Source: Gilliamella apis
GTDB lineage: Bacteria; Pseudomonadota; Gammaproteobacteria; Enterobacterales; Orbaceae
Direction of reading: 5' to 3'
Assembly: GCF_030758615.1 (NCBI RefSeq)
Contig: NZ_CP132381.1
Coordinates: 248,001 to 312,000 of the forward strand
Length of the DNA: 64,000 bases
Made by a program: the position numbers and the translations under genes. The notes beneath the pieces were generated by a model, which saw only the letters and a program-made list of their open reading frames with translations, was not told where the DNA came from and searched no databases. Below are positions 27,551-57,766 of this stretch, piece by piece (position 1 is the first letter of the stretch; each line of letters opens with the position of its first letter).

Positions 27551-28354
27551 TTAATTATTGGTGGTTGCAAGATAGATTAAAATTTGCGAAGTGGTTGAAA
27601 ATATCTGTTCTAAAATAAATTCAACAAATGAAGGCAAGGTGGAAAATAAATAACTTAACATCATTAAGCCACATAATAAGGTGAGTGGATAGCCAACTAC
27701 AAAAATTGATAACTGAGGGGTAATTCTATTTAATAGCCCTAATGACAAATTAATAATCAGCAATAACGTCATTAATGGTAATGCCAACATAACGCCATTA
27801 CTAAATAATAGACCGGTTGTTTCGATTAAGGCTAAGTGACCGTTGGCCTTTAAAGGTGAAACGCTAATAGGAATAATCTCAAAGCTGTTAGCTAACCCAT
27901 ATAGTAACCATAGATGTCCATCTAAGCTGAGAAATATCAACAAGGCAATAATGTTAATTAAACGTGACAGTACAGAAGTAGATGGCCCACCAATAGGATC
28001 ATAAAAGGTTGCCATGCCTAATCCCATTTGCATACCAATTAATTCACCTGCAAATCTTACCGTTAAAAAAGTAAGTTGTACGGTAAAACCGATTATGATG
28101 CCAATCATGATTTGCTGGGCAATAACCCAGATACCGAGTAATGAATAAAGGGTAAGGTTGTCGTCTAACTTTGGTAAAGGTAATAAAATGACGATCAGCA
28201 TTGCTAAACCAATCTTTAACCGATTTGGCACCTCTTTTTCACCGACAATAGGTGCGACCATAATTAGCGCTAAAATACGGGTAAAAGGCAGAAAACTTGA
28301 TCGAACCCAAGCAAAAAAATCAATATTAAACAGATCGTGAATCGCGGCGTCCAT
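27551..28354 (-). CDS. fliR: Flagellar export gate protein FliR
   Basis: Integral membrane subunit of the FliPQR export gate. The 267-residue product (E. coli 261) has about six hydrophobic segments and family segments FTRILALIMVAPIVG and QMGLGMATFYDPIGG. It is the last gene of the minus-strand fliF-to-fliR series and starts five bases after fliQ. Confidence 0.95.
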   Translation of the reverse strand: MDAAIHDLFNIDFFAWVRSSFLPFTRILALIMVAPIVGEKEVPNRLKIGLAMLIVILLPLPKLDDNLTLYSLLGIWVIAQQIMIGIIIGFTVQLTFLTVRFAGELIGMQMGLGMATFYDPIGGPSTSVLSRLINIIALLIFLSLDGHLWLLYGLANSFEIIPISVSPLKANGHLALIETTGLLFSNGVMLALPLMTLLLIINLSLGLLNRITPQLSIFVVGYPLTLLCGLMMLSYLFSTLPSFVEFILEQIFSTTSQILIYLATTNN

Positions 28355-28359
28355 TAAGG

Positions 28360-28629
28360 TTAACTAGTTAAGTTAGGAATATCAGTAATAACCAGACGGA
28401 TATAATCGATCATAGTCGTCAGCATTGAGGGGCCTAAAATGATTAATACTAACACCACCGCTAAAATCTTAGGAATAAAAGATAAGGTCATTTCATTAAT
28501 TTGGGTTGCAGCTTGTAACAAACTGATAATTAGCCCAGTGACTAATGCTGCGAGTAGTAAAGGACCTGCAAGTGATGCGGCAACTTTAATTGCTTGAATG
28601 GCAAAATGGCTAATATATTCAGAAGGCAT
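28360..28629 (-). CDS. fliQ: Flagellar export gate protein FliQ
   Basis: Small (89-residue) gate subunit with two membrane helices: AALVTGLIISLLQAATQINEMTLSFIPKI is split by the conserved QAATQINE turn. Length and position between fliP and fliR are canonical. Confidence 0.95.
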   Translation of the reverse strand: MPSEYISHFAIQAIKVAASLAGPLLLAALVTGLIISLLQAATQINEMTLSFIPKILAVVLVLIILGPSMLTTMIDYIRLVITDIPNLTS

Positions 28630-28651
28630 ATAATCCCTTATACTGTTGTTG

Positions 28652-29392
28652 TTAACTGAAAAAGCTTTGTGCTAATGAACCTAACAATAAATGCCAGCCA
28701 TCAGCTAATACAAACAACATAATTTTAAAAGGTAGTGATACTGTTGCTGGTGGTACCATCATCATCCCTAATGCCATTAATGTACTGGCAACAACTAAAT
28801 CAATGACTAAAAAAGGAATAAACAGAGTAAAGCCAATTTGAAAAGCGGTTTTAAGTTCACTAACCACAAAAGCGGGGACTAAAACTCGTAGCGGGATATC
28901 TTCACGCGTTTGAATATCACCAGTATGGGACATATTAACAAATAGTGTTAAATCACTTTCACGAGTTTGACTCAACATAAATTCACGCAGTGGTTTGCTT
29001 GCCTCCGTCAAACTTTGTTGCATAGTGATTTGTTGTTGTGAATAGGGAATATAAGCATCTTGATATATTTTATCCAATGTTGGTGACATAATAAAAAATG
29101 TCATAAATAGTGCAATACCTAAAATTAATTGATTAGGCGGTGCGGATTGGGTACCAAGTGCACTACGTAATAGTCCTAACACAATAATGATACGAGTAAA
29201 ACTCGTCATTAATAGTAATATAATTGGGATAAAAGTTAGTAGGGTTAAAAAAACTAAAGTTTCAACTGGTAATGACCAAGTTTGCCCTTCTGGTAGTGAG
29301 GTTTGAGTAACAATTGTTAACGGTGATAATTCAGCATAACTATATTGGCTGGCCAGCAATAAGCTAAATAAAATAACAAGTTTTAACCGCAC
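28652..29392 (-). CDS. fliP: Flagellar export gate protein FliP
   Basis: Gate subunit unusual for having a cleavable signal peptide ([20 protein letters not shown]). Four membrane segments follow, with the family block [20 protein letters not shown] then [18 protein letters not shown]. The C-terminus has [20 protein letters not shown]. The 246 residues match E. coli FliP (245). Confidence 0.96.
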
Positions 29393-29398
29393 AATTAA

Positions 29399-29800
29399 TC
29401 ACACCTTTTTACTGTTTAACACAGATCTTAATATCTGATTGAACAGATTATTTTTTGACTGTTGTTCAACGTCAGCTGGCTCTGCGAATAACATTTCAGT
29501 ACGTTGTTCATTGATAGTATGGAGTAAAGTCATTTGTTGTGCTGTAACCCCGACCACCAGTAATTGATGATCAACATAAACCAGCATAATGCGATCTTTG
29601 GCATTTATATTGTAAGTTGCTTTAACATCAATGAATTGCTTAGTAGATTTTTGCCAACCTAACCGTTTTATTAGCCAGATTAAAACGAAAATAATGGTGA
29701 TGACACTAAAAAAGGCTATTCCTATTTGGCTATATAAACTTGATTCAGCAGGAATAGACGAAAAGTTTTGTATACCGGAGTTGATAGTTGATTCGCTCAT
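29399..29800 (-). CDS. fliO: Flagellar assembly protein FliO
   Basis: FliO assists assembly of the FliP ring. The 133-residue product has a single membrane helix at about residues 24-44 (IGIAFFSVITIIFVLIWLIK) followed by a small cytoplasmic domain (DRIMLVYVDHQLLVVGVTAQ). Assigned mainly on position between fliN and fliP plus this architecture. Confidence 0.88.
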   Translation of the reverse strand: MSESTINSGIQNFSSIPAESSLYSQIGIAFFSVITIIFVLIWLIKRLGWQKSTKQFIDVKATYNINAKDRIMLVYVDHQLLVVGVTAQQMTLLHTINEQRTEMLFAEPADVEQQSKNNLFNQILRSVLNSKKV

Positions 29801-29820: not shown

Positions 29821-30201
29821 TTAACGACTTAATCTACGTACCCGTTCTGATGGGGTAATAATATCGGTAATTCGTACACCATAATTGTCACCCACCACCA
29901 CGATCTCGCCTTGCGCAATTAAGTAACCGTTAATTAAAATATCTAATGGCTCACCAGCTAAACCATCTAAGGCGATAACTGAGCCTTGAGTTAAATTTAA
30001 TAGATCTTTAATGGCCATTTTGGTGCGGCCAAGTTCAACACTTAAATTAACCGGAATATCTAAAATAAGATTAATATCTTGTTCTTTTACATTTGATGGT
30101 TGGGGAGAAAGGGTTTCAAAAATAGCTTCTGTCGTTACCGATTCTTCATCAGTTAAGTTAGTTGCTTGGCTATCATCACTGTTATTTGGCATATCACTCA
30201 T
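29821..30201 (-). CDS. fliN: Flagellar switch protein FliN
   Basis: C-ring subunit that forms the base of the rotor and docks FliH. An acidic, low-complexity N-terminal part is followed by the SpoA domain: LDIPVNLSVELGRTKMAIKD, then GSVIALDGLAGEPLDILING. The start is the ATG at 30201 with AAGGAG six bases upstream (126 residues). The upstream ATG at 30216 has no such site. It overlaps the fliM stop by eight bases. Confidence 0.95.
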   Translation of the reverse strand: MSDMPNNSDDSQATNLTDEESVTTEAIFETLSPQPSNVKEQDINLILDIPVNLSVELGRTKMAIKDLLNLTQGSVIALDGLAGEPLDILINGYLIAQGEIVVVGDNYGVRITDIITPSERVRRLSR

Positions 30202-31231
30202 TGAACACTCCTTCATTCAATTGTTCTAATACAGGGTTGCTTATTTGCTCTACTTGAATTGCATATTGTTTATTTACACTACCATATTGGCCTTTTAAAA
30301 CCGGTACGCCACCAATAGTGGCATCTAGGCTGGTTGGTTTTTCAATATCTAAAATGTCGTTTACTTTTAATGCTAATAATTTGGCAACAGTTGTTTGAAT
30401 ATTTGTAAAATTAGCGACTAACTCAACCGTTGATTGTTTAATACCGCTAGTGAGGGAACTCATCCAGACATTATCATCTTGATGGGTTTGACTTTCGATC
30501 GGTGGTTTAATTAATAGCTCTTTGATAGGTTCAACCATTGTATATGGAATGCATATGCAGAAAGTTGCTTTAAAGCTTCCAATTTCAATTAAAAAGGTGG
30601 ACGTTAACACAACATCATCGGGAGAACTGGTGATATTGGTAAATTTACTCTCAACTTCAGAACGAATATATTCAGTTTCAATACTGTATACGTCAATCCA
30701 TGAATTTTGATATGTAGTTAAAGCAAGATCTAATACTCGTCTAATAATTTCTTGTTCGGTATGAGTAAATTCACGTCCTTCCTTTTCCATATTGGAGGTA
30801 TGTCCATCACCGCCAAAAAGCGTATCAACAACAATAAATACCAGTTCTGGTGAAAAAGAAAATAAGCAGCTTCCTCGTAAAGGATTAAGATGAACTAAAT
30901 TTAAATGGTAAGTTGCCGAAATATGCGAAAACTCTTTAAATGTTTTTGGCTCAATTGGCGAGGTAATAACATCCGTGTTACGACGTAATAAATTAAATAA
31001 ACCAATTCGAAATTGACGAGCAAAGCGTTCATTAATGATTTCTAATGCTGTTAGTCTTTCAGGGATAAAACTATGTTTAACTGATATATCATAAGGTTTT
31101 ACTTCAGTCCGTTTACTTTGCTGTGATTGATAATTTTGCACAATATTTTTTTCAATACTGGCAACATTATTCGGTGAATGTTTAGCTAAAGATTCACTTT
31201 TATCGCTAGTAGATTGAAGCTTATCAAACAT
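30194..31231 (-). CDS. fliM: Flagellar switch protein FliM lacking the CheY-binding peptide
   Basis: FliM is the middle C-ring subunit. The body is well conserved: RFARQFRIGLFNLLRR, the LFGGDG loop, EGREFTHTEQEIIRRVLDLAL, YIRSEVESKFTNITSSPDDVV and the SpoA-type end (DILDIEKPTSLDA, then GVPVLKGQYG). E. coli FliM starts with a peptide containing LSQAEIDALL that binds CheY-P. The first 50 residues here (MFDKLQSTSDKSESLAKHSP onward) contain nothing like it, although an extension is present. With no che gene in the island, switching by CheY is unlikely. Length is 345 against 334 in E. coli. Confidence 0.95.
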   Translation of the reverse strand: MFDKLQSTSDKSESLAKHSPNNVASIEKNIVQNYQSQQSKRTEVKPYDISVKHSFIPERLTALEIINERFARQFRIGLFNLLRRNTDVITSPIEPKTFKEFSHISATYHLNLVHLNPLRGSCLFSFSPELVFIVVDTLFGGDGHTSNMEKEGREFTHTEQEIIRRVLDLALTTYQNSWIDVYSIETEYIRSEVESKFTNITSSPDDVVLTSTFLIEIGSFKATFCICIPYTMVEPIKELLIKPPIESQTHQDDNVWMSSLTSGIKQSTVELVANFTNIQTTVAKLLALKVNDILDIEKPTSLDATIGGVPVLKGQYGSVNKQYAIQVEQISNPVLEQLNEGVFNE

Positions 31232-31236: not shown

Positions 31237-31704
31237 TTACCTTATAATGAAATCAGTGAATAACACTTCATCGATTTTTACTGAATGTTTGGCATCGTAT
31301 TGACGTGATAATGCTGTTTTTATTTGCTCTTGTAATTCGAGTTTGCCAGATTCTTTTTTCAAATTATTGACATATTGTTTTGAGGTTAACAGCAATACAT
31401 CACTTCTTACTTCAGGCAAATATTCTAATAATACCGTTTTTTGATCTTCATCTTCGACACGTAACACCATACCAACATATAGAATTTTATTGATATCTAA
31501 ATTATCTTCAGAAGGTGGTAATGTAATGGTAAATGGTTTTAAGGTTAAAAAAACTGGTGATGAAACTTGAGGTTCTTGATGAGTGTGCGTCGTATTTTTA
31601 GCTTGATTTTCGAACCATAAATAAGCTGCTGAACCTATTGCGAGTAAGGTAATTAGAATAAGTATTAGGTTTAAAATTCTTACTTTTTTATTGGTGGTTT
31701 GCAT
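31237..31704 (-). CDS. fliL: Flagellar basal body-associated protein FliL
   Basis: FliL surrounds the stator units. The 155-residue product has a short cytoplasmic N-terminus, one membrane helix at about residues 10-29 (LNLILILITLLAIGSAAYLW), and a periplasmic domain ending in DEVLFTDFIIR. It heads the fliLMNOPQR unit. The 214-base gap before it (31705-31918) probably holds a promoter, but no sigma-28 match was found there. Confidence 0.93.
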   Translation of the reverse strand: MQTTNKKVRILNLILILITLLAIGSAAYLWFENQAKNTTHTHQEPQVSSPVFLTLKPFTITLPPSEDNLDINKILYVGMVLRVEDEDQKTVLLEYLPEVRSDVLLLTSKQYVNNLKKESGKLELQEQIKTALSRQYDAKHSVKIDEVLFTDFIIR

Positions 31705-31918: not shown

Positions 31919-33097
31919 TTAGGCAAAAATACTTAATCCTGATTGAACAACCTCAGTATGATGATCAATTTTTTGTTGAATTGGATTGATATCATCTAAT
32001 AGTTGTTCTGTTTCAAATTGTTGTGGTTGTTGATAAGAAGATGACTGTTTAGAATCATTCATCATTGAAAAATCACTAATGTTAGTGTGTTGTAAAGTGA
32101 TACCTTGTTGTTCCAATGAGGTTCTTAACATGGGGAGAGCTGATTCTAACACACCCTTAACCATATTATGCGCAACCGCCATGTGCAGATCGATTTTGTC
32201 ATCAATCATGGCTAATTTAATATGTAATGATCCTAGTTCTTGTGGATTTAATTTTATTTCGGCATTTTGAATACCTTGTCTACTGATCAAACAAATTTGT
32301 TCATTTAAAGATGCTTGCCACTTACTAATATCCATGGGCATCGGTAAATTTAAGTTTAATGTGGTTGGATTTGCTGTAGAGGTTGGTGGATTAAATAGCG
32401 ATGATTGGCCATTTAGATCTATTGATAAAGCCATTTCTGATGGTGTATTAACCAAATTAGTAGTAAACAATTTATCTGTCAAAATTGACGCCAAATCAGT
32501 ATGATGATCATTGCTATGATTATTTACCAGCGTATCAGTTGACTGTGTTTGATTAATGATCAAATGTACATTTTTGGTCGTTTGTGGCTGATTATTTTCC
32601 CAAGCCAATAAATGACTATGGTTTGGTTGATTGGTTTTGTTGATTAATTGCTCACTGTGATTAATTGAGGCAATAATTTCGGCAGCTTTTTCATCAATAT
32701 GGATGCGCTGTTTGATATCATCAGTACATTGTGTATCCAACTTTGGATCAATCATGGTTGGATTAGCTTCTAATAATAGTTTAGTTTCATATATTGGTTG
32801 ATTTTTTGGTTGAGCATCCGATTGCCTATTTTGCTGTATATCCTCTTGCTGATTGAATGGCATAGAAAATAGTATGAACAACTCTTCACTTTCCATTCGT
32901 TCTTTCTGCTCTAACTCATTGTCTTTTAAGTTTGTAGCATTAACGTGATTATTATTATCACTTAGCCATTGTTGTTTTTCGGTAAGTTGTAATAATTTTT
33001 GGAAAAAATCATCATCAAGAATAGATAACTGGTTGTCGTTTAATTCAAATTGTTGAGATGAGATTAATGGAATATCGCTAAACTGATTAATATTCAT
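31919..33097 (-). CDS. fliK: Flagellar hook-length control protein FliK
   Basis: FliK measures hook length and switches export specificity. The 392-residue protein has a long, poorly conserved Gln/Asn-rich N-terminal ruler region. The conserved C-terminal domain contains AEIKLNPQELGSLHIKLAMI and ALPMLRTSLEQQGI. Position after fliJ is canonical. The start overlaps fliJ by 11 bases. Confidence 0.92.
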   Translation of the reverse strand: MNINQFSDIPLISSQQFELNDNQLSILDDDFFQKLLQLTEKQQWLSDNNNHVNATNLKDNELEQKERMESEELFILFSMPFNQQEDIQQNRQSDAQPKNQPIYETKLLLEANPTMIDPKLDTQCTDDIKQRIHIDEKAAEIIASINHSEQLINKTNQPNHSHLLAWENNQPQTTKNVHLIINQTQSTDTLVNNHSNDHHTDLASILTDKLFTTNLVNTPSEMALSIDLNGQSSLFNPPTSTANPTTLNLNLPMPMDISKWQASLNEQICLISRQGIQNAEIKLNPQELGSLHIKLAMIDDKIDLHMAVAHNMVKGVLESALPMLRTSLEQQGITLQHTNISDFSMMNDSKQSSSYQQPQQFETEQLLDDINPIQQKIDHHTEVVQSGLSIFA

Positions 33098-33551
33098 TCA
33101 ATGTTCTCCTTGCTATCTGCTGCTGAGCAAATTCATCGGTTAATTTTTGTTGTAAACGACTCTGTTGTAGTAACAGTTTTTTATGTTGTTTATCTAATAA
33201 TGTAGTATAAGTATTTAGGCTTTTTTGTGATTGATTAAGCTCATTGGTGATCTGCTTTTGTTTTATATCTAAAGTTAATAGTAGTTTTTTTTGTTGCGCT
33301 ATACCTTGTTCAATAGCTGTAATAAAAGCATTAAAATTATTTAATTCCGATCCCTTAATGCCACTGGATAAAGCATTATTTAGCCGTTGTTGGTACTCGT
33401 GATAATAATCATTTAATACATTTAGTTGTGATTGTGCATTACGTTTATTTTCGTGTGCATGTTTTAATTTAATCAATTTTTCATCAACTGCTTTTTCAGC
33501 GAGCTTTTTTAACGTTATAAATGCAAATTTACCATGATGTTGATTGGCCAT
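33087..33551 (-). CDS. fliJ: Flagellar export chaperone FliJ
   Basis: FliJ is a coiled-coil stalk inside the FliI ATPase ring. The 154-residue product is almost entirely helical, rich in Lys, Gln and Leu (KKLAEKAVDEKLIKLKHAHE at the start). Assigned on coiled-coil character, length (E. coli 147) and location between fliI and fliK. Confidence 0.9.
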   Translation of the reverse strand: MANQHHGKFAFITLKKLAEKAVDEKLIKLKHAHENKRNAQSQLNVLNDYYHEYQQRLNNALSSGIKGSELNNFNAFITAIEQGIAQQKKLLLTLDIKQKQITNELNQSQKSLNTYTTLLDKQHKKLLLQQSRLQQKLTDEFAQQQIARRTLNEY

Positions 33552-33568
33552 AATTCTTTCCTAATTTA

Positions 33569-34957
33569 TCAGCGAGCAGCAACAATATTGATTAATTGTT
33601 GATAAGCGTCTTGATAACTACAATACTCATTGATTCCTTGTTGTAAAAATTGCTGCATAGCTGGAAAAAGTGAGATAGCTTTATCTAATAATGGATCGGT
33701 TCCAGCTACGTAAGCACCAACATTAATCAAGTCCCGATTGCGCTGGAAACTTGAAAATAATTGTTTAAATAACCGTGATTTTTTTTCATTTTCTGGCGGG
33801 GTAAGATCGGTCATTACACGACTGATTGACGCTTCGATATCAATGGCTGGATAATGCCCCGATTCAGCTAGTGAACGTGATAACACTATATGACCATCAA
33901 GAATTGCCCTTGCTGAATCAGCAATAGGATCTTGTTGGTCGTCACCTTCGGTTAACACAGTATAAAAAGCAGTAATTGCCCCTTTTCCTTTGGCATCATT
34001 ACCTGCTCTTTCAACTAATGCTGGCAATTTTGCAAATACTGATGGTGGATAACCTTTGGTTGCCGGCGGTTCACCGATGGCTAAGGCTATTTCCCGTTGT
34101 GCCATGGCATAACGGGTTAGTGAATCCATGATCAGTAATACATTAAACCCTTGATCACGAAAATTTTCGGCTATTTTTGTGGCATAAGCTGCACCTTGTA
34201 GACGTAATAATGGCGATACATCGGCTGGTGCCGCGACAACTACTGAACGCGCTAAGCCTTCTTCACCAAGTATATTTTCGATAAAATCTTTTACTTCCCT
34301 GCCTCGTTCGCCAATCAGACCAACCACAATAATATCAGCTTTGGTATACCTAGCCATCATGCCAAGTAGTACACTTTTACCAACACCAGAACCGGCAAAA
34401 AGCCCCATTCGTTGACCTTGGCCAACGGTTAATAATGCATTGATAGCACGAATACCGACATCTAATACTTGATGAATAGGTGTGCGAGTCAGAGGGTTTA
34501 GTGATTTATTGATTAATCCTTCATATTCAATATTTTCTGGTAAAGGTTTGCCATCCAATGGTTTGCCCATTGCATCAACTATTCGTCCTAATAAGCCCGT
34601 ACCAATAGGTAAAACTTTATGGCTAAAATGAGTTAAATCATATTGTGAGGTATATACTCTGGCATCAAGTAATATGCCATCGGTTGATTCAAATGGCATC
34701 AGATATAAGGTTTTACCATTAAAACCAATAACTTCACACTCAACAGCTTGTACTTTTCCATCTAATTGCCGTTCGACAAAGCAGTTAGAACCTAAAGGTA
34801 ATTTTAAACCCACGGCCTCTAAAACTAAGCCCGAAGCTTTAACTAAGCGACCATATTGACGGATTAACGATATTGACTGTAATTTTTGTTGCGCACAATC
34901 AATTTTAGTCATCCATTGCCTACAAAAGTCCACCTTAATGTTCAACTCCATGTACAT
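33569..34957 (-). CDS. fliI: Flagellum-specific ATPase FliI
   Basis: F1-like ATPase energising type III export. Walker A is [20 protein letters not shown], Walker B is [20 protein letters not shown], and the family block [18 protein letters not shown] follows. The 462 residues match E. coli (457). The start at 34957 (or the ATG at 34951) lies within fliH, indicating coupling. A later ATG would remove the aligned N-terminal helix. Confidence 0.97.
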
Positions 34958-35726
34958 TATCTGAGATGATTTGCCAATGATGGGTTACACTGGCGTCGAT
35001 CTCATTGGTTTGGGTAAATATTTTGCAACCCCCTAATTCGATATTGGCATCGGCTATAAACTGCCATTGCTGTGGTTGCAACTCATTATTTAGTTGTGGT
35101 TCAAGCCATAACAAGTCTGTTGGATTAATTCGTACTACAATTGGTGGGTTAACAATTGTATTTTGTTCAATTAATGATTTTATAATATGTAATAATTGTT
35201 TTTGTTTTACTTTTGATAATGAACCAACTGTTTTTTCGGCAGCAAGTAAAGCTAAGTCAAATAGCTTTGGTACAATTTTCTCATCAATTTGGCTAATCGA
35301 TTGTTGAAAGCTGATTGCTAAATTTTTGATGGCATTTATGCTAGTTAATTTTTCTGCTGTTAACTGTTGTTCTATTGTGTCCAGCCCTTCTTGGTGACCG
35401 AGAGTGAATCCTTGCTCATAGCCAGTCTGTTTGCCAATATTAAAACCTTCTTCTTTACCTAAATTAAAGCCTTCTTGGTATGCTTCATCTCTTGCTTGTT
35501 GTTTAATATTTTCGAGTTCTAGCAATATTGCTGGGCTATTAATATCAAAAGAGTCTTCATCTTTATCATCGTGGCTATCTGGCTCTAATGGTGGCGCAAA
35601 TTCTTCCAACTCTTCTGGCTGTTGCTGGCTGGTTAATGGTGATAATTCGCTAAGTGCCAAATCTTGGAAATGCAATGGTTTCCAACTTACACTATTAGTA
35701 TGATTATACATATTCATCATCACCAC
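34935..35726 (-). CDS. fliH: Flagellar assembly protein FliH
   Basis: FliH is the peripheral stalk that regulates FliI and links it to FliN. The 263-residue product has an acidic N-terminal part and a Gly-rich heptad region ([20 protein letters not shown], the GxxxG repeats typical of FliH). A C-terminal V-ATPase-E-like domain follows ([20 protein letters not shown]). It overlaps both fliG and fliI by about 23 bases. Confidence 0.94.
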
Positions 35727-36702
35727 TTGTTAAGATCATCTCACCAGTTTCTGCTAAGCGCCGTGCAATAACCAAAATTTTCTTCTGTTCGGTTTCGACT
35801 TGCGACAAGCGAACTGGTGGTCTGTTTTCTAAATCTTCTCGTAATATTGAGGCAGCGCGTTGTGACATATTTGCTAATAGCTTGTCGCGTAGCGTTTCTG
35901 TTGCCCCTTTCATAGCGATGATTAAGGTTTCATTATCCACCTCTTTGAGTAGACGTTGGATACTTCTATCATCGACATCAATCAGATTTTCAAATAGGAA
36001 CATTTCATCAATGATTTTTTGAGCAAGCTCATTGTCATAATCTCGTAATGCATTGATAACCAATTCTTCTTGTTGTGATTTCATCAGATTGATAATTTCT
36101 GCTGCGGTGCGGATGCCACCCATGTTATTAAGTTTAATATTTTGTCCATGTAGTAAGGTTGATAATGATGTCGATAACACTTCTAATGCTGATGGCTCTA
36201 CGCCACCGAAAGTTGCAATACGTAGCATGACGTCATTACGTAATTGGTCATCAAATAAATTTAAAATCTCAGCAGCCAAATCGCGATTTAAGTGAACTAA
36301 AATGGTGGCGATAATTTGTGGATGTTCTTTTTTAACTAAATCAACCGCGCGTGCAGCATCGACAAAGTTAAGCATTTTTAAACCATCAGTGGTATCTTCG
36401 ATATCAGTATCTAATAGTTCATCAAGCAATCGGTTAGCTTTATCACTACCAATTGATTTTTCTAGAACTTTTCTTAAATAGCCATTGGTATCTGTATTTA
36501 ATACTGCACAATCATCAAGAGTATTTTGACACTCATTAAGAATATTTTTCAGTTGTTCTTGAGTTAATTGTGGCAATCCCATCATGGCACTACTAATTTT
36601 TTGTACCTCTTTGTGGTTTAAAAATTGCATTACTTTGGCTGCTAATTCTTCACCTAAAATCATTAAAATTGTCGCTGCTTTTTGCGCTTCAGTTAAATTC
36701 AT
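35704..36702 (-). CDS. fliG: Flagellar motor switch protein FliG
   Basis: FliG is the rotor protein that contacts MotA. The 332-residue product contains QKAATILMILGEELAAKVMQ at the start, the EHPQIIATILVHLN middle block, and the torque helix ILREDLENRPPVRLSQVETE near the C-terminus with conserved charged residues. The start is the ATG at 36702: AAGGA lies upstream and TAATG overlaps the fliF stop. An in-frame start at 36729 inside fliF is unnecessary. Confidence 0.96.
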   Translation of the reverse strand: MNLTEAQKAATILMILGEELAAKVMQFLNHKEVQKISSAMMGLPQLTQEQLKNILNECQNTLDDCAVLNTDTNGYLRKVLEKSIGSDKANRLLDELLDTDIEDTTDGLKMLNFVDAARAVDLVKKEHPQIIATILVHLNRDLAAEILNLFDDQLRNDVMLRIATFGGVEPSALEVLSTSLSTLLHGQNIKLNNMGGIRTAAEIINLMKSQQEELVINALRDYDNELAQKIIDEMFLFENLIDVDDRSIQRLLKEVDNETLIIAMKGATETLRDKLLANMSQRAASILREDLENRPPVRLSQVETEQKKILVIARRLAETGEMILTSGDDEYV

Positions 36703-38402
36703 TACTCGGTGTCCTTCTTGTTCATCCAACCACGTATAATCAGAGCCATTACACGAGGATCTTTCTCGACAATTTTGCGGATGTATTGCTGTTGTTGCAT
36801 ATTATCTTCAAAAATCTTCTGTTGCAGTTTACTGTGTGCTTTGTAATCAAGCTTATCTTCACTAGCCATTGTGCCATCAGATGATCTGTTATCAGTATTA
36901 AGATATTGTCTTTGAATTTTAATCCATATCGAGCGTAATACTTTGCGCCATGCAAACCAGATTATTAAAATATAAATCAGATATTTAATTGCGACTTTCA
37001 GCATGTCGAAAACTTCATGTTTTTGTAAAAAGACAATGGCGGCATTTTCATCTTCAATTTGATCGGTAAATTTCAAATTAGCCACTGTTAATGAATCACC
37101 ACGCAAGTCAGAAAACCCCATTGCTTGACGGGCAAGCGCTTCAATATGGGTGAGTTCCTCTTGATCTAGTTTTACCCATTTTTCAACGGCTTCCTGTTCT
37201 GAATTTTCTTCATTTGCCGATGTGACTTCATCGGCTGAAATAAATTTATAATTAACTAAAACAGCGACAGATAAACGCTTGATACGACCTTCAGGGATTT
37301 TGCTATGAATAACTTGACGATTAACTTCAAAGTTCAATGTCTTATTTGACTGTAAATGATACATTTTTTGTTTATCGTCTTTATCTTTGGTATCGCTCTC
37401 ACCATCAATTGGTGCACTAGGCGTTGGTACCGGTTGATTAGATAATGCGCCCGGCACACCACCGATAATATTGCTTGATGCTAATTGGCTATTTTCAATT
37501 TGTTGCTTACTACGAATAGTTTGGTTGCTGGCATCGCTATTGGGATCATAAATTTCTGATGTTGACTCTTGCCGACTAAAATCGATATCCGCATTCACTT
37601 GTACCTTAACATTTTGTTGTCCCAAAATAGGGATAATAATTTTTTCTACTCGTTCTCGAATTAGATTTTCAATGCGTTCACTATATTCTAATTGGGCAAT
37701 ATTAACGTTACTGTCACGGTATCTTTCACCGGTTAATAAATTGCCTTTTTGATCAATAATCGTCACCTTATCCGCTTGTAATTCTGGCACACTACTCGAA
37801 ATTAAATGAATGATGGCGTCAATTTGACCTTGAGATAAAGCTCGACCTGGTAATAAAGTTAGTGCAACAGAGGCGGAAGGGAATTTTCTTTCTCGAACAA
37901 ATAAAGAGGGTTTAGGCATCGCTAAATGCACTCTGGCATCATCTACACTACTAATAATGGCAATGGTTCTCGATAGTTCGCCTTCTAATGCTCGTTGATA
38001 GTTGATTTGTTCATTAAACTGACTCATGCCAAAACTTTCTTTGTCGAGTAGTTCAAAACCAATTGCACCACCTTTAGGCAAACCCTGCTGTGCTATTCGT
38101 AAACGAGTATGATAAATTTGATTTTGGGGAATTAAGATATTTGTGCCAGAGGATGAAAATTTGTAGGGAATATTTAACTTATCAAGTTGGCTAATGATTT
38201 CACCGCCATCCTTATCATTCAAATTACTAAATAATACGCCATAATTATCGTCTTTAAGCCATAAGTAAGTAATACTACTAATTGCTATTACAATTACTCC
38301 TACAATAAGGAGTAGCATTTTACGATTTATTTTTAATTGATTAATAAAAGGTAACTTACTCAATATTGATTCGCCTTTGTTACCAACTGCCTGGCTATCC
38401 AT
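36702..38402 (-). CDS. fliF: Flagellar MS-ring protein FliF
   Basis: FliF forms the MS ring. It has two membrane helices, at about residues 30-48 (MLLLIVGVIVIAISSITYLW) and about 455-475 (LIYILIIWFAWRKVL). Between them lie periplasmic ring-building domains (GLPKGGAIGFELLDKESFGM and the PKPSLFVRERKFPSASVALT block). The C-terminal tail binds FliG. The 566 residues match E. coli (552). First gene of the minus-strand fliF-K series, divergent from fliE. Confidence 0.96.
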   Translation of the reverse strand: MDSQAVGNKGESILSKLPFINQLKINRKMLLLIVGVIVIAISSITYLWLKDDNYGVLFSNLNDKDGGEIISQLDKLNIPYKFSSSGTNILIPQNQIYHTRLRIAQQGLPKGGAIGFELLDKESFGMSQFNEQINYQRALEGELSRTIAIISSVDDARVHLAMPKPSLFVRERKFPSASVALTLLPGRALSQGQIDAIIHLISSSVPELQADKVTIIDQKGNLLTGERYRDSNVNIAQLEYSERIENLIRERVEKIIIPILGQQNVKVQVNADIDFSRQESTSEIYDPNSDASNQTIRSKQQIENSQLASSNIIGGVPGALSNQPVPTPSAPIDGESDTKDKDDKQKMYHLQSNKTLNFEVNRQVIHSKIPEGRIKRLSVAVLVNYKFISADEVTSANEENSEQEAVEKWVKLDQEELTHIEALARQAMGFSDLRGDSLTVANLKFTDQIEDENAAIVFLQKHEVFDMLKVAIKYLIYILIIWFAWRKVLRSIWIKIQRQYLNTDNRSSDGTMASEDKLDYKAHSKLQQKIFEDNMQQQQYIRKIVEKDPRVMALIIRGWMNKKDTE

Positions 38403-38577
38403 ATGTATCCTAACACTAAACTGACTAGATTAATTCTAGGGTTTATTATCTGTGTATTTAAAAAAATCAATAGCTAAAAAAGCATATGCTTTACCCTTTA
38501 GTTATCGCTTTTAGATTGTTATCTTTATGATAATTTACGCTATAACTTGATTAAGACGAATAACCGTGACCTTTATT

Positions 38578-38880
38578 ATGAATAGTATTGATGCCTTTAA
38601 TAGCACAACATTAACCCAACTTGATTTTTCACATAAGCAATCTATTAATCATAGTGAACAAAATTTTATGGCTGAATTAAAAATGGCATTAGATAAAATC
38701 AGTCAAACACAAATAGACGCTAGCCAGCAAGCCAAAGCATTTGAGATGGGTGAAGCCAATATCGCATTAAATGAGGTGATGGTTAGCATGCAAAAGTCTT
38801 CAGTTTCTTTACAATTTGGTATTCAAGTTCGCAATAAATTAGTCGCAGCATATCAAGAAATTATGAATATGAATGTTTAA
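38578..38880 (+). CDS. fliE: Flagellar hook-basal body complex protein FliE
   Basis: FliE joins the MS ring to the rod. The 100-residue product ends with the conserved block [20 protein letters not shown], then [20 protein letters not shown], nearly identical to E. coli FliE. The start is taken as the ATG at 38578; a GTG at 38566 is also in frame. It is divergent from fliF, as in E. coli. Confidence 0.94.
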
Positions 38881-39218: not shown

Positions 39219-39581
39219 CTAAACTAAATTGGCGATTGTTTGGTAGCTATCTATTTTGGCTTGATAATCAACCTGCTCACCAATTAATTGGCTTAATTCA
39301 TTATGTCGAAGATGGATTAATTGCTTTAATTGCTCATGATAACTAAGAATATTATTGATATACATTTGAAGAATATCTTGTTGTGATAATGGTATATTAT
39401 CAATAGTAGTTAACCCATTTTTGAGTTGAATATCACGTGCTAACTGCTGATATTTAGTTTGCCAACTAATTAATAATTCCCAATTTTCTTGTTGTGCATT
39501 AATTAGCATTTGCTCAACAACATAATTAAGTTGCTCGTATTGTTCTAGTACTAGACTCGTATTCAATGTTGCTACATCCAT
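39219..39581 (-). CDS. fliT: Flagellar export chaperone FliT-like protein
   Basis: Probable FliT, the cytoplasmic chaperone of FliD and inhibitor of FlhDC. The 120-residue product is all-helical (LEQYEQLNYVVEQMLINAQQ). It has the length of E. coli FliT (121) and follows fliS two bases downstream, as in the fliDST operon. Sequence conservation in this family is low, so position carries much of the weight. Confidence 0.82.
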   Translation of the reverse strand: MDVATLNTSLVLEQYEQLNYVVEQMLINAQQENWELLISWQTKYQQLARDIQLKNGLTTIDNIPLSQQDILQMYINNILSYHEQLKQLIHLRHNELSQLIGEQVDYQAKIDSYQTIANLV

Positions 39582-39583
39582 AA

Positions 39584-39961
39584 CTATGCTATCTCACGCC
39601 AAGCTTGGGCAATATTATTAAGCAGATCAAAACAAGTTTGCAGTATTTGTGTATCATTATGTAGATTAGCGAAAACCAGTTGTTGACTGATATATTGATA
39701 TAACTGATCTAAATTTTCAGCAATTTCACCGCCTTGATCTAGATCAAGGCAACTTTTAAGCCCATTATCAATGATATTGATAGCTTTAGAAATGGCTTTT
39801 CCTTTACCAGCAATATTACCCTTTTGTATATATAACTCAGCTAAGCGAATAGCATTTAATGCGCCATCAAATAACAAAACAATAAGCTGATGAGGTGAAG
39901 CCTGACTAACGCTGGTTTCTAAATTAACTTGTTTATAAGCTTGAGATCCCATTTTATACAT
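39584..39961 (-). CDS. fliS: Flagellin export chaperone FliS
   Basis: FliS binds the flagellin C-terminus before export. The 125-residue product contains YKQVNLETSVSQASPHQLIV then LLFDGALNAI and the KGKAISKAINIIDNGLKSCL helix, all typical. Because the fliC frameshift in this window removes the flagellin C-terminus, the natural client segment is missing as sequenced. Confidence 0.95.
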   Translation of the reverse strand: MYKMGSQAYKQVNLETSVSQASPHQLIVLLFDGALNAIRLAELYIQKGNIAGKGKAISKAINIIDNGLKSCLDLDQGGEIAENLDQLYQYISQQLVFANLHNDTQILQTCFDLLNNIAQAWREIA

Positions 39962-39970
39962 TGTTATGCC

Positions 39971-41404
39971 TTATTTTTTCAAATTCGCCATCATTTCAAA
40001 TTGGGTGGTAAGATAATTACTCATACCATTTAATTCATTGATTAAGATATCTAGTTTTGTGAATTGTACCCGATAACGCTCGATAGTTTGGTCAATAGAG
40101 TTATTAACTTGGTCATAGCGTTTATCTAATGATTTTAAGGTAGAATTTAAACCGTTAGTTGCCGTATCAATCATGCCGTCGCTATCAATAAAGCTACTTA
40201 CTTTGGCAAAGACTTCGTTGGCAATGCCAGTTGTTTCACCATCACCAGTAAATAAAATGGCGACTGCTTCACTGTTTTCTTTAAGGTTTTTTTCTAATTC
40301 GTTTTCTTTAATTACCAGCTTGCCATTACTATCCATATTGATACCAATTTGTGCTAATACCGATAATTCTCCTGTTTGACCTTTAGAAAATATAGAGCGA
40401 ATACTTTGATCAATATTACGTAGAGTTGAATCACCAATCAGTGGGCCATTACTATTATTTAATTCATCTGAATTGGCATCACCAGCGGTAAATTGCGTTA
40501 AGCTTGATATGGTTGATTGTAATTGATTAAAGGCATCAACCCACTCTTTAAGGGCTTCTTGAGCTTTGTCATTGTCAGCGCTGATGGTTAAATTTTGCGC
40601 TGTTGTAGTGACTGCTTTTAATGTGATATCGACACCAGGAATAACCTCTTTAACGGTATTTGATGAGCTATTAATCGTTATACCATTAAAGCTAAATTTA
40701 GCATCTTGCGCTTTAGCTACTTCACTCATAGCTGATGAATCAGCTTGATTAGCATTAAAACCAATTAGTGAATTAAGTTTATCATCATCGGATGAAATAG
40801 AGGTAATGGCTTGTTGTTCACCGGTTTCTTTCGATGTGATAACCAGTTGATAGCTATCAGTTCCAGAACGGACAATAGTGGCATTTACCGTTGTGTCACT
40901 GGTTGAACCATCTTCATTAATCACCTTAGCTTGATTGATTGCATTGGCTATTGATTCGAGCGATGTGTCATCTTTGCCTAACGTGATATTTAATTTTTGG
41001 CCATTAGCTTGTTCTATTGTGAGGGTACGGGTTTCATTATCATTACCTAAAGCTGATGTTTTATCATTTATAGCATTCGTGGCAACACTATGTGCAGTGG
41101 CAAGTTGTTCGACGCTAACTGCATAATTACCTAATTGGGCCTTGCTATTTACATTAGTGGTAAAATAGTTGTCATTACCAGATGCAAAACGCGCTTGAAA
41201 CAGCTCTTTTTTTTGCAGTTTTGCTGTTGCGCTGTTGAATGTTGATAATGCACTTTTTAATTTACCAAAACCGCTTATTTTATTATTAACTGCTTTTTGT
41301 TGGGCTTTTATCGGTGTAAGACGATTTTTCTCAACGGCTTCTAATTGATCTAATACTTCATTTAAATCAATACCAGAACCAATTCCTAATATACTCATTG
41401 CCAT
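39971..41404 (-). CDS. fliD: Flagellar filament cap protein FliD
   Basis: FliD is the filament cap and, in gut bacteria, often an adhesin. The 477-residue product starts MAMSILGIGSGIDLNEVLDQ, has the N-terminal block ISGFGKLKSALSTFNSATAK, and ends with a D0-like coiled coil (YLTTQFEMMANLKK). A sigma-28 promoter lies 39-65 bases upstream. It heads fliD-fliS-fliT. Confidence 0.96.
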   Translation of the reverse strand: MAMSILGIGSGIDLNEVLDQLEAVEKNRLTPIKAQQKAVNNKISGFGKLKSALSTFNSATAKLQKKELFQARFASGNDNYFTTNVNSKAQLGNYAVSVEQLATAHSVATNAINDKTSALGNDNETRTLTIEQANGQKLNITLGKDDTSLESIANAINQAKVINEDGSTSDTTVNATIVRSGTDSYQLVITSKETGEQQAITSISSDDDKLNSLIGFNANQADSSAMSEVAKAQDAKFSFNGITINSSSNTVKEVIPGVDITLKAVTTTAQNLTISADNDKAQEALKEWVDAFNQLQSTISSLTQFTAGDANSDELNNSNGPLIGDSTLRNIDQSIRSIFSKGQTGELSVLAQIGINMDSNGKLVIKENELEKNLKENSEAVAILFTGDGETTGIANEVFAKVSSFIDSDGMIDTATNGLNSTLKSLDKRYDQVNNSIDQTIERYRVQFTKLDILINELNGMSNYLTTQFEMMANLKK

Positions 41405-41971: not shown

Positions 41972-42785
41972 ATGGCACAAGTAATTAATACTAATACTAT
42001 GTCTTTAATGGCAAGAAACAACCTTAATCATTCTCAAAGCGTGCTTGGAACTGCAATTGAGCGTCTATCATCTGGTATGCGTATCAACAGTGCTAAAGAC
42101 GATGCCGCTGGTCAAGCAATCGCTAACCGTTTTTCTTCTAGTATTCGTGGTTTAACTCAAGCTGCACGTAATGCCAATGACGGTATTTCAATTGCACAAA
42201 CTACAGAAGGTGCATTAAACGAAATCAATAATAACGTACAACGTATTCGTGAATTAACTGTTCAAGCAGCAAACGGTACTAACTCTGAAAGCGATCTTGT
42301 ATCAATCCAAAATGAAATCGATCAACGTTTACAAGAGATCGACCGTGTATCAGCACAAACCGACTTCAATGGTACTAAAGTATTATCAGAAGACAAAACA
42401 CTGAACATTCAAGTTGGTGCAAATGATGGTGAAATCATTGCTATCAATTTAAAACAAATTGACAGTGATAAATTAGGTTTATCTGGTTTTAATGTATCTG
42501 ATGCGCCAACCGCAGATCCATTAAAAACAATCGATGAAGCATTATCAAAAATTGATGAATTACGTGGTGAAGCTTGGTGCGGTACAAAATCGTTTTGAAT
42601 CAACCGTAACTAACATCAATAATACTGTAAATAACTTAAGTTCAGCACGTAGCCGTATTGAAGATGCAGATTATGCTGAAGAAGTATCAAATATGACTCG
42701 TGGTCAAATCTTACAACAAGCAGGTACTTCAGTATTAGCACAAGCTAACCAAGTACCACAATCAGTATTGTCTTTATTACAATAA
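41972..42785 (+). pseudogene. fliC: Flagellin FliC, interrupted by a one-base frameshift
   Basis: Flagellin is the filament subunit. The reading frame from 41972 (ribosome binding site AAAGGAG) encodes the canonical N-terminal D0/D1: MAQVINTNTMSLMARNNLNH, then the RLSSGMRINSAKDDAAGQAI block. It runs to a stop at 42598 after 208 residues, ending in unrelated [13 protein letters not shown]. The conserved C-terminal helix continues in the +1 frame from 42570: [20 protein letters not shown] up to QSVLSLLQ at 42785. One extra base within 42566-42569 explains this; removing it gives [12 protein letters not shown] and a 270-residue protein. The joined protein has essentially no D2/D3 variable region. 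This could be a real mutation, a phase-variable state or a sequencing error. No second flagellin gene is in the window. Confidence 0.9.
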
Positions 42786-42834: not shown

Positions 42835-42870
42835 TAACAATAGTGGTATTTTTTAATACCACTATTGTTA
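42835..42870 (+). terminator. Long hairpin after fliC
   Basis: Perfect 16-base inverted repeat TAACAATAGTGGTATT / AATACCACTATTGTTA around a four-T loop, 50 bases after the fliC end. No T tract follows the stem, so it may be a transcript-end stabiliser or a partial terminator before fliA. Confidence 0.6.
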
Positions 42871-42971
42871 ATAATGTTAATTACCTATTTTTTAATATCT
42901 TATTCTTGCCATTAATTCAATCAATTATCGTCATAATAATCATTAGCATTTTTTTACATTGGTTCAGAAAA

Positions 42972-43688
42972 ATGAGTGATAGCCTGTATAACTCTCAAGG
43001 TGTAGTGAATCAAATCGATTGGCAACAATATCTATATTTAGTTCGTAATGAAGCGTTGAAATTAGCTGTTCGATTGCCAACAACGATTGAACTTGATGAC
43101 TTACTGCAAGTTGGTTATATAGGTTTATTAGAGTCTATAAAACGCTATGATGCATCTCAAGGTTATACTTTTACTACCTTTGCTACTCCGAGAATAAAAG
43201 GGGCTATGCTAGATGAATTGCGTAGTCGAGATTGGTTACCACGGCAAACACGGAAAAAAATTAAAGATGTCACTAATGCTATTAATGAATTAGAACAAAA
43301 ATTAGGCATACCTCCCAATGATCAGCAGATAGCTGCACATCTGCAATTATCTCTGACTGAATATCACAAAGTATTATTAGATTCAAATTATAGCCAAATC
43401 TGTTCTTATGATGAGATTCACAAAAAACTCGGCGATAATTTGGATGCGTTAATTGAGCCTGACGCAGATAACAATCCTTTTGCTTCCATTATTAATGATG
43501 AAATTCGCAATATTATTGTTCAACAAATTAGTAACTTACCAGAAAAAGAAAAAATGGTTTTAGCTCTCTATTATCAAGAGGAATTAAATTTAAAAGAGAT
43601 TGGAAAAGTGTTGGATATTAGCGAATCTCGAGTAAGTCAATTACATAGCCAAGCAATTAAACGAATACAAAGTAAAATTGTTTTATAA
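42972..43688 (+). CDS. fliA: RNA polymerase sigma-28 factor FliA
   Basis: FliA transcribes late flagellar genes and is held inactive by FlgM. The 238-residue product shows sigma region 2 (ELDDLLQVGYIGLLESIKRY, then FTTFATPRIKGAMLDELRSR) and region 4 (LALYYQEELNLKEIGKVLDI, then SESRVSQLHSQAIKRI), near-identical to E. coli FliA (239). The open frame extends upstream to 42843 into the fliC hairpin, but that part is an artefact of AT-rich sequence. The ATG at 42972 matches the family start. Four promoters of its type are found in the window. Confidence 0.95.
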   Translation: MSDSLYNSQGVVNQIDWQQYLYLVRNEALKLAVRLPTTIELDDLLQVGYIGLLESIKRYDASQGYTFTTFATPRIKGAMLDELRSRDWLPRQTRKKIKDVTNAINELEQKLGIPPNDQQIAAHLQLSLTEYHKVLLDSNYSQICSYDEIHKKLGDNLDALIEPDADNNPFASIINDEIRNIIVQQISNLPEKEKMVLALYYQEELNLKEIGKVLDISESRVSQLHSQAIKRIQSKIVL

Positions 43689-43858: not shown

Positions 43859-44200
43859 GTGGTGGTTAAATTGGGAAATATACAAGATGACGATATTTTG
43901 AAATGTATTCATCATTTAAATCTTTCAACGCTTTTATTAAGTCAAAAGATGATTGAAAAAGATAAAGTGATGGCGATGTATCGATTAGGAATTGATGAAA
44001 AAACAGCTGATATCTTGAGTAATTTAAGTGCTTCTCAAATGTTGGTTCTATCTGAAACCAATCAATTAACATTTCAATTTAGATTTAAAAATTCGGCAAT
44101 GATGGAAAAATTAACTGAGGAATCTCGCGTTAGTGATATAAAGCAGATGCATACAGGGATCCTTCTATCAAGCTTACTTTTAGATTCAATTAATAAGTAG
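43859..44200 (+). CDS. flhD: Flagellar master regulator subunit FlhD
   Basis: FlhD with FlhC forms the FlhD4C2 activator of class II flagellar promoters. The 113-residue product aligns with E. coli FlhD through LNLSTLLLSQKMIEKDKVMA then MYRLGIDEKTADIL, LSETNQLTFQFRF and IKQMHTGILLSSLLLDSINK. The start is uncertain: GTG codons at 43859 and 43862 precede a TTG, with no ATG in frame and a poor ribosome binding site. It is four bases upstream of flhC. Confidence 0.92.
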   Translation: MVVKLGNIQDDDILKCIHHLNLSTLLLSQKMIEKDKVMAMYRLGIDEKTADILSNLSASQMLVLSETNQLTFQFRFKNSAMMEKLTEESRVSDIKQMHTGILLSSLLLDSINK

Positions 44201-44204
44201 GTAG

Positions 44205-44819
44205 ATGATAAAGATGAGTAGCACAAGTATTATTCAAAAGTATAAAGAAGTTCAATTAGCTATTCGATTAATTTCACTCGGCGCTAGAATCCAAATGTTA
44301 GAAAGTGAAACCAATTTAAGCCGTGGTAAATTAATTAAATTATATAAAGAAATTCAAGGATGTCCTCCTCCTAAAGGTTTGCTTCCCTTTTCAACTACGT
44401 GGTTTATGACTTGGGAGCCCAATATTCACTCAAGTATGTTTTATAATGCTTACCATTTTTTAGTTAAACATGGCATTAAACCTGGTGTTCAGGCCATTTT
44501 AAAAGCCTATCAACTCTATTTAGAACAGTGTTCCTTTCCTCAAGATGAAGAGCCTATTTTAGGATTAACCCGAGCATGGATTTTAGTTAAATTTGTTGAA
44601 AGTAATGTTATGCAGCAGTCAAGTTGCAAGGAGTGCAAAGGGCGATTTATTACCCATGCTTATCAACCGCATAATAGCTTTGTGTGCAGTTTATGCCAGC
44701 CACCATCAAGAGCAGAAAAAAATAATAAAACACATAAAGAGAGTCATGCCAAATGTTTACAAGTTTTATCAATACCAAATGCATTTAATTTAGTCACAGC
44801 AAATCAGGTAACAATTTAA
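44205..44819 (+). CDS. flhC: Flagellar master regulator subunit FlhC
   Basis: DNA-contacting partner of FlhD. The 204-residue product contains [20 protein letters not shown] then [28 protein letters not shown], and the zinc-binding cysteines in [10 protein letters not shown] and FVCSLCQPP, all conserved in FlhC. An internal ATG at 44214 is possible as the start. It is followed by motAB as in E. coli, but cheA and cheW are absent. Confidence 0.95.
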
Positions 44820-44877: not shown

Positions 44878-45765
44878 ATGCTAATAATTATAGGATATAT
44901 TGTGGTTATCGCTTCAGCCTTAGTCGGCTATGTGCTAAGTGGCGGGTATTTGGCGGTACTTTTTCAGCCATTAGAGTTTCTCATTATTGGTGGGACAGCT
45001 ATTGGTGCTTTCATTGTCAGTAATGAAAAGAAAGTTATCAAAGCGACACTTAAATCACTAGGTAATTTATTTAAAACCTCAAAATATAATAAAACACTTT
45101 ATTTAACATTAATTAATTTAATGTACACCATATTAACTAAAGTGCGTCAAAGTGGTGGCTTATCCATTGAAGAAGATATCGATAATCCCAAAGAGAGTGA
45201 GTTATTTAAAAAATACCCACTTATTTTAGCCAATCCGCAAGTTTGTGATTTTATCACTGATTATTTACGTTTGATGATCAGTGGCAATATGGAAGTATAT
45301 GAAATCGAAGCACTAATGAATGAGGAAATAGAAACCTATACTCATGAACTTGAAAAACCAGCTGATGCTATTGCTAGCGTCGGTGATGGTTTACCCGCTT
45401 TTGGTATTGTGGCAGCAGTTATGGGGGTAATTAACACCTTAGCACAAGCTGACCGCCCAGCTAGCGAATTGGGTGAGCTTATTGCCCATGCTATGGTTGG
45501 TACCTTTTTAGGTATTTTACTTGCTTATGGTTTTGTGTCGCCTTTAGCAGCCTTATTAAGGCAAAAAAATGCCGATACAGTAAAAATTTTAGAATGTACT
45601 AAAGTGATTCTTATTGCCAGTATGCATGATTATGCTCCGCAAATTTGTATTGAGTTTGGTCGCAAAACAATTTTTTCCCACGAACGGCCATCTTTCTTTG
45701 AATTAGAAAAATATATTCAAGAAGTGAAAGATAAAAACGCTAACCCAACAGAAAATAATGAATAA
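44878..45765 (+). CDS. motA: Flagellar stator protein MotA
   Basis: Proton-channel stator subunit contacting FliG. The 295-residue product has the length of E. coli MotA. It contains four membrane helices, the N-terminal GGYLAVLFQPLEFLIIGGTA, the cytoplasmic loop, and ADAIASVGDGLPAFGIVAAV in helix 3 with its conserved proline. The ribosome binding site is AAAGGAAA. No sigma-28 promoter was recognised upstream, so it is probably read from flhDC. Confidence 0.96.
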   Translation: MLIIIGYIVVIASALVGYVLSGGYLAVLFQPLEFLIIGGTAIGAFIVSNEKKVIKATLKSLGNLFKTSKYNKTLYLTLINLMYTILTKVRQSGGLSIEEDIDNPKESELFKKYPLILANPQVCDFITDYLRLMISGNMEVYEIEALMNEEIETYTHELEKPADAIASVGDGLPAFGIVAAVMGVINTLAQADRPASELGELIAHAMVGTFLGILLAYGFVSPLAALLRQKNADTVKILECTKVILIASMHDYAPQICIEFGRKTIFSHERPSFFELEKYIQEVKDKNANPTENNE

Positions 45766-46652: not shown

Positions 46653-46727
46653 TATCAACATAAATACTCAGATTAAGCTGGTTAAAAAATTAAAATCAAA
46701 AAAAATCCATTTTTATCTAAAAATAAC

Positions 46728-46754
46728 TAAAGTTTTTAAATTGTAGGCCGATAT
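46728..46754 (+). promoter_or_regulatory. Sigma-28 promoter of flgKL
   Basis: TAAAGTTT-N11-GCCGATAT: one mismatch to the FliA consensus and exact spacing, 61 bases before the flgK ATG. Confidence 0.88.
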
Positions 46755-46815
46755 AAATAATAACACTTTAGTTTAATAATTTTATTATTAACTGAGATTA
46801 TATTTAGGAGCCTTT

Positions 46816-50731: not shown

Positions 50732-50746
50732 TTCAATAGTTCTGCT

Positions 50747-52554: not shown

Positions 52555-52564
52555 TTTGTTAGAT

Positions 52565-53347: not shown

Positions 53348-53365
53348 TGCTGTTTCCTATTTTAG

Positions 53366-54121: not shown

Positions 54122-54135
54122 AAATACTCCTTAAA

Positions 54136-55347: not shown

Positions 55348-55363
55348 ATTAACTTATTCCCCT

Positions 55364-56086: not shown

Positions 56087-56096
56087 TTACGCCCTT

Positions 56097-56501: not shown

Positions 56502-56506
56502 GATGA

Positions 56507-57736: not shown

Positions 57737-57739
57737 AAT

Positions 57740-57766
57740 TAATGATTTTTTGATTTTTGCCGATAA
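57740..57766 (+). promoter_or_regulatory. Sigma-28 promoter of flgM
   Basis: TAATGATT-N11-GCCGATAA: the -10 is a perfect FliA consensus and the -35 has three differences, with exact spacing. It lies 49 bases before flgM, giving the known feedback in which FliA drives its own inhibitor. Confidence 0.8.

Follow-up and report, generated by a model that had tools for sequence, protein, structure and literature searches.

Absence of chemotaxis genes and of the FliM CheY-binding peptide in the flagellar system of Gilliamella apis and other Orbaceae

Described systems and the flagellar island

The closest described counterpart of the flagellum considered here is the flag-1 type of Escherichia coli K-12, in which motB is adjoined by cheA, followed by cheW, tar, tap, cheR, cheB, cheY and cheZ. 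Another flagellum of an insect symbiont, flag-4 of Wigglesworthia glossinidia, is described in the accessible part of PMC7526173 as having a locus without cheZYBR-cheAW, and also as being without flhE, flgM and fliATZ. According to the available portion of PMC9126983, an N-terminal CheY-binding peptide is a feature of the FliM and FliY proteins of all motile bacteria. Within the genus Gilliamella, excerpts of PMC11822680 report long flagella and swimming in GA1 strains, and no flagella and less movement in GA5 strains, the flagellar genes being intact in both, and discuss Gilliamella motility as nutrient chemotaxis. In PMC10470603, as far as its text was accessible, flagella are given as absent in a fly Gilliamella and present in bee Gilliamella, and the discussion links Gilliamella flagella to biofilm. 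In Orbus and Utexia strains flagella were not detected, flagellar genes being marked in nine of 17 table columns (PMC11434166, partial text), and a table row in PMC12282196, likewise an excerpt, gives chemotaxis and flagellar pathways by group. Within the titles, abstract openings and some passages covered, no statement was found on che-less flagella in Orbaceae or on FliM without the peptide.

The window analysed here is a stretch of 64,000 nucleotides of Gilliamella apis (NZ_CP132381.1, positions 248,001 to 312,000). It holds a flagellar island of 34 kb, spanning fliR (27551) to flhA (61954), which resembles the E. coli K-12 system in gene set and in having flhDC and fliA, with FliM, FliG, FliN, MotA and MotB 46-67% identical. 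It differs in that no che or MCP genes were found, in a FliM without LSQAEIDALL, and in being one island in which motB is followed by flgK and not by cheA. In contrast to Wigglesworthia, Gilliamella has retained fliA and flgM, and fliT is matched weakly. Among the genes scanned, NCBIfam and Pfam profiles named export, basal body, hook, cap, stator and regulatory genes; FliL, FliO, FliK, FliH, FliT, FlgN and both flagellin pieces fell below every curated cut-off, and fliQ, flgB, flgC and flgF were identified by place and sequence only. The features are as follows.

27551..29800, minus strand: fliR, fliQ (28360-28629; place and sequence), fliP and fliO (just under cut-off), the export gate
29821..30216, minus strand: fliN (NCBIfam); positions corresponding to A93 and V113 of E. 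coli conserved
30194..31231, minus strand: fliM, 345 aa; TIGR01397 (NCBIfam), PF02154 and PF01052 (Pfam)
31100..31231, minus strand: N-terminal tail of FliM (residues 1-44); no CheY-binding peptide, weak constraint
31237..31704, minus strand: fliL, directly upstream of fliM; match below curated cut-off
31919..38402, minus strand: fliK, fliJ, fliI, fliH, fliG, fliF (fliK and fliH under cut-offs)
35704..36729, minus strand: fliG; charged torque residues kept, with E at D288
38566..38880, plus strand: fliE
39219..41404, minus strand: fliT (under cut-off), fliS, fliD
41972..42785, plus strand: fliC, as two overlapping frames (41972-42598 and 42534-42785)
42843..43688, plus strand: fliA, flagellar sigma factor
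43859..44819, plus strand: flhD and flhC, master regulators
44878..45765, plus strand: motA; R90, E98, P173 and P222 kept
45765..46652, plus strand: motB; D32 kept
46653..46815, plus strand: motB-flgK intergenic stretch, 163 bp; position of cheA-cheW-tar-tap-cheR-cheB-cheY-cheZ in E. coli K-12
46816..48459, plus strand: flgK, next gene after motB
48475..49413, plus strand: flgL
49706..56917, minus strand: flgJ, I, H, G, F, E, D, C, B (NCBIfam for J; Pfam and place for I, H, G, E and D; position and sequence alone for F, C and B)
57074..58572, plus strand: flgA, flgM, flgN (flgN under cut-off)
58716..61954, plus strand: flhB, flhA

The fliM gene lies in a fliLMNOPQR operon, with fliL upstream and an overlapping fliN downstream. 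Its product scored 260.5 bits against TIGR01397 (cut-off 219.6), and the FliM middle and C-terminal domains (PF02154 and PF01052) both matched the 345-aa ORF. The FliM core, with 'PYD..ERLxALEIINERFAR', is of the enterobacterial type shared with the E. coli K-12 flag-1 system. As family placement rests on these core domains, the protein is classed as a FliM without the peptide. Three relatives (an uncultured Gilliamella, Gilliamella sp. N-G2 and Gilliamella apis NO3) have FliM sequences 97-99% identical to it. No LSQxEIDALL-like peptide was present within its first 44 residues and, since the fliM ATG is placed only five bases past the fliL stop, an extended N-terminus that would carry one does not fit. 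The original prediction of a FliM lacking this peptide was thereby confirmed, as was its observation that motAB run directly into flgK where E. coli has cheAW: between the end of motB (46652) and the start of flgK (46816), a gap of 163 bp, no listed ORF of at least 60 aa lies wholly inside.

The fliC gene of the window is frame-broken near 42570, its two parts matching the N- and C-terminal regions of flagellin. Compared with G035, G017 and G015 (a comparison that leaves out the L100 row), it differs in length by one base close to nucleotide 599, and its open frame is 216 aa, against 271-333 aa for the best flagellin copy in each of the remaining 33 of 34 genomes. The original prediction makes no mention of this break, which would be either a recent mutation, in which case the strain would be filament-less, or a sequencing error; given the broken frame, the strain may not swim at all. 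The genome G030 carries two full-length flagellin matches, on contigs C2 and C11, which are 57-58% identical to the window query.

Distribution of the peptide and of chemotaxis genes

The pattern L[ST]QxEIDALL was found in all 40 FliM sequences compared from other families of the order (taken from 206, among those with positions listed), and in none of 35 Orbaceae copies, which represent 34 genomes, as G035, which is 5% contaminated, holds two. A much looser peptide pattern still gave no match in the 35 Orbaceae copies, and the absence is not a matter of chance. The first 18 FliM residues are identical in four enteric (f19) loci and E. coli K-12. In a set of 121 proteins, made up of the query and the best 120 of 3870 homologues, the peptide was missing from 40 Gilliamella/Frischella-like FliM (P0001-P0040, at least 63% identity) and from two metagenome proteins, P0042 and P0043, 55-56% identical to the FliM of the window, which may belong to a deeper branch of Orbaceae or form a separate lineage. 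It was present in 78 of the remaining 79 proteins of this best-120 set, some of them with Arg or Gln in place of Ala; P0059 is a fragment and uninformative on the peptide. One member, P0041, is an E. coli-like FliM of 423 aa in which the C-terminal part is repeated internally, and this repeat may be an assembly artefact.

A FliM tree of 67 of these proteins, with tails removed and 26 enterobacterial sequences (every third) included, has one fully supported branch that parts the enterobacterial FliM from those without the peptide. The tree fits a single loss of the peptide if it is rooted on the enterobacterial branch, but not with the midpoint root as drawn, under which P0042 and P0043 group with the enterobacterial side. 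As the absence is common to every flagellate Orbaceae genome examined, the loss probably occurred once, before Gilliamella and Frischella diverged.

Chemotaxis genes were sought by profile search in the whole genome of the window strain (a single contig of 2,714,786 bp, 99.99% complete) and in a set of 44 Orbaceae genomes, of which 39 are near-complete and 35 belong to the same genus; an E. coli positive control matched with every Pfam family used. The CheW domain, a part of CheA and CheV as well, had no match in the window genome nor in any of the 44 (0/39 near-complete genomes, 0/35 of the window's genus). The MCP signalling domain was likewise absent from the window genome and gave no match over the cut-off in the 44, and the PilZ domain, that of the YcgR brake, was found neither in the window genome nor in the 44. 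In G030, a 490-aa open frame (locus L050, G030:C43) gave an MCP-signal match of 20.4 bits, below the cut-off of 34.6. The window genome encodes 11 receiver-domain proteins, with open frames of 218-493 aa, so that none is as small as CheY, which has 129 aa in E. coli. With E. coli CheY as query against the 44 Orbaceae genomes, every frame among the matches listed was at least 218 aa, and the best match (E 1.2e-18) came from a genome without FliM. FliM was present in 34 of the 44 genomes, as was flagellin; three of the ten genomes without FliM are in the window's genus.

The original prediction had noted the lack of che genes within the window only; it now holds genome-wide, the search for cheA, cheY, cheW and MCP genes having returned no CheW, no MCP and no receiver of CheY size, and the alignment of FliM N-termini across Orbaceae and the wider Enterobacterales, at 0/35 copies against 40/40, agrees. 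Its proposal of a flagellum 'not steered by CheY' is well supported by the combined lack of CheW (and hence CheA and CheV), of MCPs, of a stand-alone CheY and of the FliM docking peptide.

How unusual this is was assessed in two wider samples. Among 295 genomes of the GTDB order, each at least 90% complete, FliM was found in 224 and CheW in 226, and FliM without CheW was seen in all 18 FliM-bearing Orbaceae and in none of the 206 other FliM-bearing genomes. Twenty genomes of this sample (family f8 genus g12 and others) have CheW-domain proteins without FliM, perhaps belonging to pilus-linked chemosensory systems. The phylum sample comprised 299 genomes; 241 had CheW and 212 matched FliM, 209 of these above the cut-off. 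CheW was missing in eight of the 212: the window genome, four members of family f60 with strong FliM matches (G332, G426, G503 and G534, loci L121-L124), and three of family f67 (G389, G429 and G461), whose FliM-family matches are weak (E 3.2e-8, 4.3e-4 and 1.5e-4). Twenty phylum FliM were fetched and 19 were readable, and all 19 carried a peptide of the looser type, including those of the four che-less and five che-bearing f60 members; for locus L133, which stands outside the 19, the frame was not found, and a motif was seen in the longest frame.

Against a general rule that loss of che genes removes the peptide stand the four che-less f60 flagellates, all of which keep LNQ[DE]EIDSLL; the five f60 members fetched as controls have CheW, and the f60 FliM is presumably of the alphaproteobacterial kind. 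Either a rule linking the two losses fails or the che loss in f60 is recent, and che loss by itself is no predictor of peptide loss. For statistical purposes the Orbaceae case counts as a single event, and any connection between che loss and peptide loss would be tentative. Orbaceae combine a family-wide che-less flagellum with loss of the docking peptide. Set against the rule for all motile bacteria in the accessible text of PMC9126983, the count of 0/35 means that this generalisation fails for Orbaceae, if their flagella are motile.

Divergence of the FliM tail and of the motor parts

The FliM tail was not deleted in Orbaceae, where it is 41-55 residues long, but drifts under weak selection. 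Across 93 non-independent Orbaceae FliM pairs with core dS of 0.02-1.0, the tail had a pooled pN/pS of 0.54 and the core one of 0.12, a ratio of about 4.5, and residues 2-15, the would-be peptide site, did not stand apart from the rest of the tail (0.55 vs 0.54). Some features of the extreme N-terminus are retained: among 30 distinct first-20 sequences, a Met-x-Asp start is universal and Lys4 is present in 27. The Orbaceae consensus begins MSDKQESTTDINE, with D-I-N at the E-I-D of E. coli (residues 10-12), and an acid-hydrophobic-D/N triplet occupies residues 10-12 in 13 of the 30 distinct sequences. A decayed EIDALL remnant, still in place, is nevertheless unsupported, as the homologous offset was best in only three of 34 distinct tails and shuffled sequences attained the consensus score at frequencies of 0.07 (residues 2-18) and 0.12 (residues 6-15).

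The FliM body had originally been described as well conserved, and this stands in a relative sense only, since it is 46% identical to that of E. coli K-12, compared with 60% for FliG and 67% for FliN; the corresponding values for MotA and MotB are 58% and 50%. Residues that we take to be essential for torque are kept, namely D32 of MotB, R90, E98, P173 and P222 of MotA, and K264, R281, D289 and R297 of FliG, while D288 of FliG is replaced by E, a conservative change. When identity to E. coli was tabulated by domain (a table without the FliG row for two of seven outgroups and without FliF rows for eight of 18 non-Orbaceae loci), the 11 enteric f19 genomes had medians of 94% for the FliM middle domain and 95% for FliN. 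The 22 Orbaceae rows gave 56% for the FliM middle domain, 82% for FliN and 76% for FliG-C, and FliM is thus the odd one out among Orbaceae motor parts. Seven more distant genomes of the order were also low for the FliM middle domain (46%, with FliN at 55% and FliI at 59%), which means that part of the Orbaceae gap reflects distance.

In a comparison with che-bearing outgroups, for which the FliM and FliG domain borders were those we assume to apply, mean identity was lower in Orbaceae than in enterics, the difference being 9.4 points in the FliM middle domain, 6.8 in FliG-N and 6.0 in FliG-M, but 0.7-2.1 points in FliM-C, FliG-C, FliN, FliI and FliP; the pairs are non-independent, the 22 Orbaceae rows include the duplicate L046/L163, and there are 5-7 outgroup rows per gene. 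Site counts were 13 vs 6 for the FliM middle domain, 8 vs 5 for FliG-N and 9 vs 3 for FliG-M, none of them significant singly (chi2 2.6, 0.7 and 3.0). An accelerated drift of the switch domains in Orbaceae is, on these figures, suggestive only.

Operation of the motor and biological meaning

The explanation we regard as likely is that flagellate Orbaceae have a torque-competent flagellum of enterobacterial type from which CheY control was lost, probably once, and in which the FliM tail is now drifting. Genes for CheA/CheW, receptors and a stand-alone CheY were not found, and the FliM docking peptide for CheY-P is lost; a single loss would have taken place in an ancestor common to Gilliamella and Frischella. 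In E. coli, a motor deprived of CheY is locked in counter-clockwise rotation. By analogy, and given that there is neither CheY-P nor a PilZ (YcgR-type) brake, the motor of Orbaceae would turn in its default direction, counter-clockwise, producing smooth swimming without controlled tumbles. Control would then lie in the decision to build flagella or not, with FlhDC and FliA/FlgM retained, and the tail of FliM would be left to drift under weak selection. GA1 strains, if they are like the 35 genomes of the window's genus, would swim without CheA/CheY chemotaxis.

A switch can in principle work without CheY, and the motor might thus be uncoupled from CheY and yet change direction by itself or by load, giving random tumbles and not smooth swimming. 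FliG, the FliM middle domain, FliN and the stator are all present, and the greater drift of the FliM middle domain and of FliG-N and FliG-M, relative to FliG-C, FliN, FliI and FliP, could shift the switching bias; we nevertheless consider this unlikely, because the drift signal is weak at the chi2 values given above and the E. coli motors that lack CheY do not switch. It seems rather less probable still that the apparatus is retained for adhesion, secretion or biofilm, with rotation of little importance. The frame-broken fliC of the window, amid other listed flagellar genes that are open, and the biofilm link in the accessible discussion of PMC10470603 would suit such a role, but the best flagellin copy is open for at least 271 aa in the other 33 of 34 genomes, and retention of the stator and torque residues makes it probable that selection still acts on rotation. 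Together with the swimming of GA1 strains, as reported in the available text of PMC11822680, these residues favour swimming over a purely adhesive or secretory function; the consequences drawn in the original prediction, smooth swimming only or else adhesion or secretion, are in this sense partly supported.

The takeover of FliM by a different response regulator or another protein that reads the new tail is a distinctly poor prospect. The preserved tail length, the invariant Met-x-Asp and near-invariant Lys4, and the 11 receiver proteins of the window genome leave some room for it, but all 11 frames, at 218 aa or more, exceed a single receiver, the pN/pS of the tail is several times that of the core, and the alignment of tails shows, by eye, no conserved new motif of useful length. 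Least credible of all is that che genes are present and were missed through assembly gaps or divergence. Very diverged members can escape profile searches, and five of the 44 Orbaceae genomes lie outside the near-complete set; against this, the window genome is a single, 99.99% complete contig with no match, CheW was found in 0/39 near-complete Orbaceae but in 206/206 other FliM-bearing genomes of the order sample, and the absence of the peptide agrees independently.

Loss of CheY control from a motor that can still generate torque thus appears the best account. A more far-reaching proposition, to which we would give slightly less than an even chance, is that flagellate Orbaceae are a swimming lineage without the docking peptide and with a permanently unswitched motor, in which the FliM tail and middle domain and the N and M domains of FliG are drifting while torque and export parts are not. 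For the ecology of the bee gut, the nutrient chemotaxis proposed in the accessible passages of PMC11822680 is unsupported by any CheA/CheY pathway found in these genomes. A bee-gut family that swims without the peptide, CheY, receptors or a PilZ brake would constitute a natural experiment on what the flagellar switch is for, and a motor with unselected switching parts would help to separate the residues needed for torque from those needed for switching.
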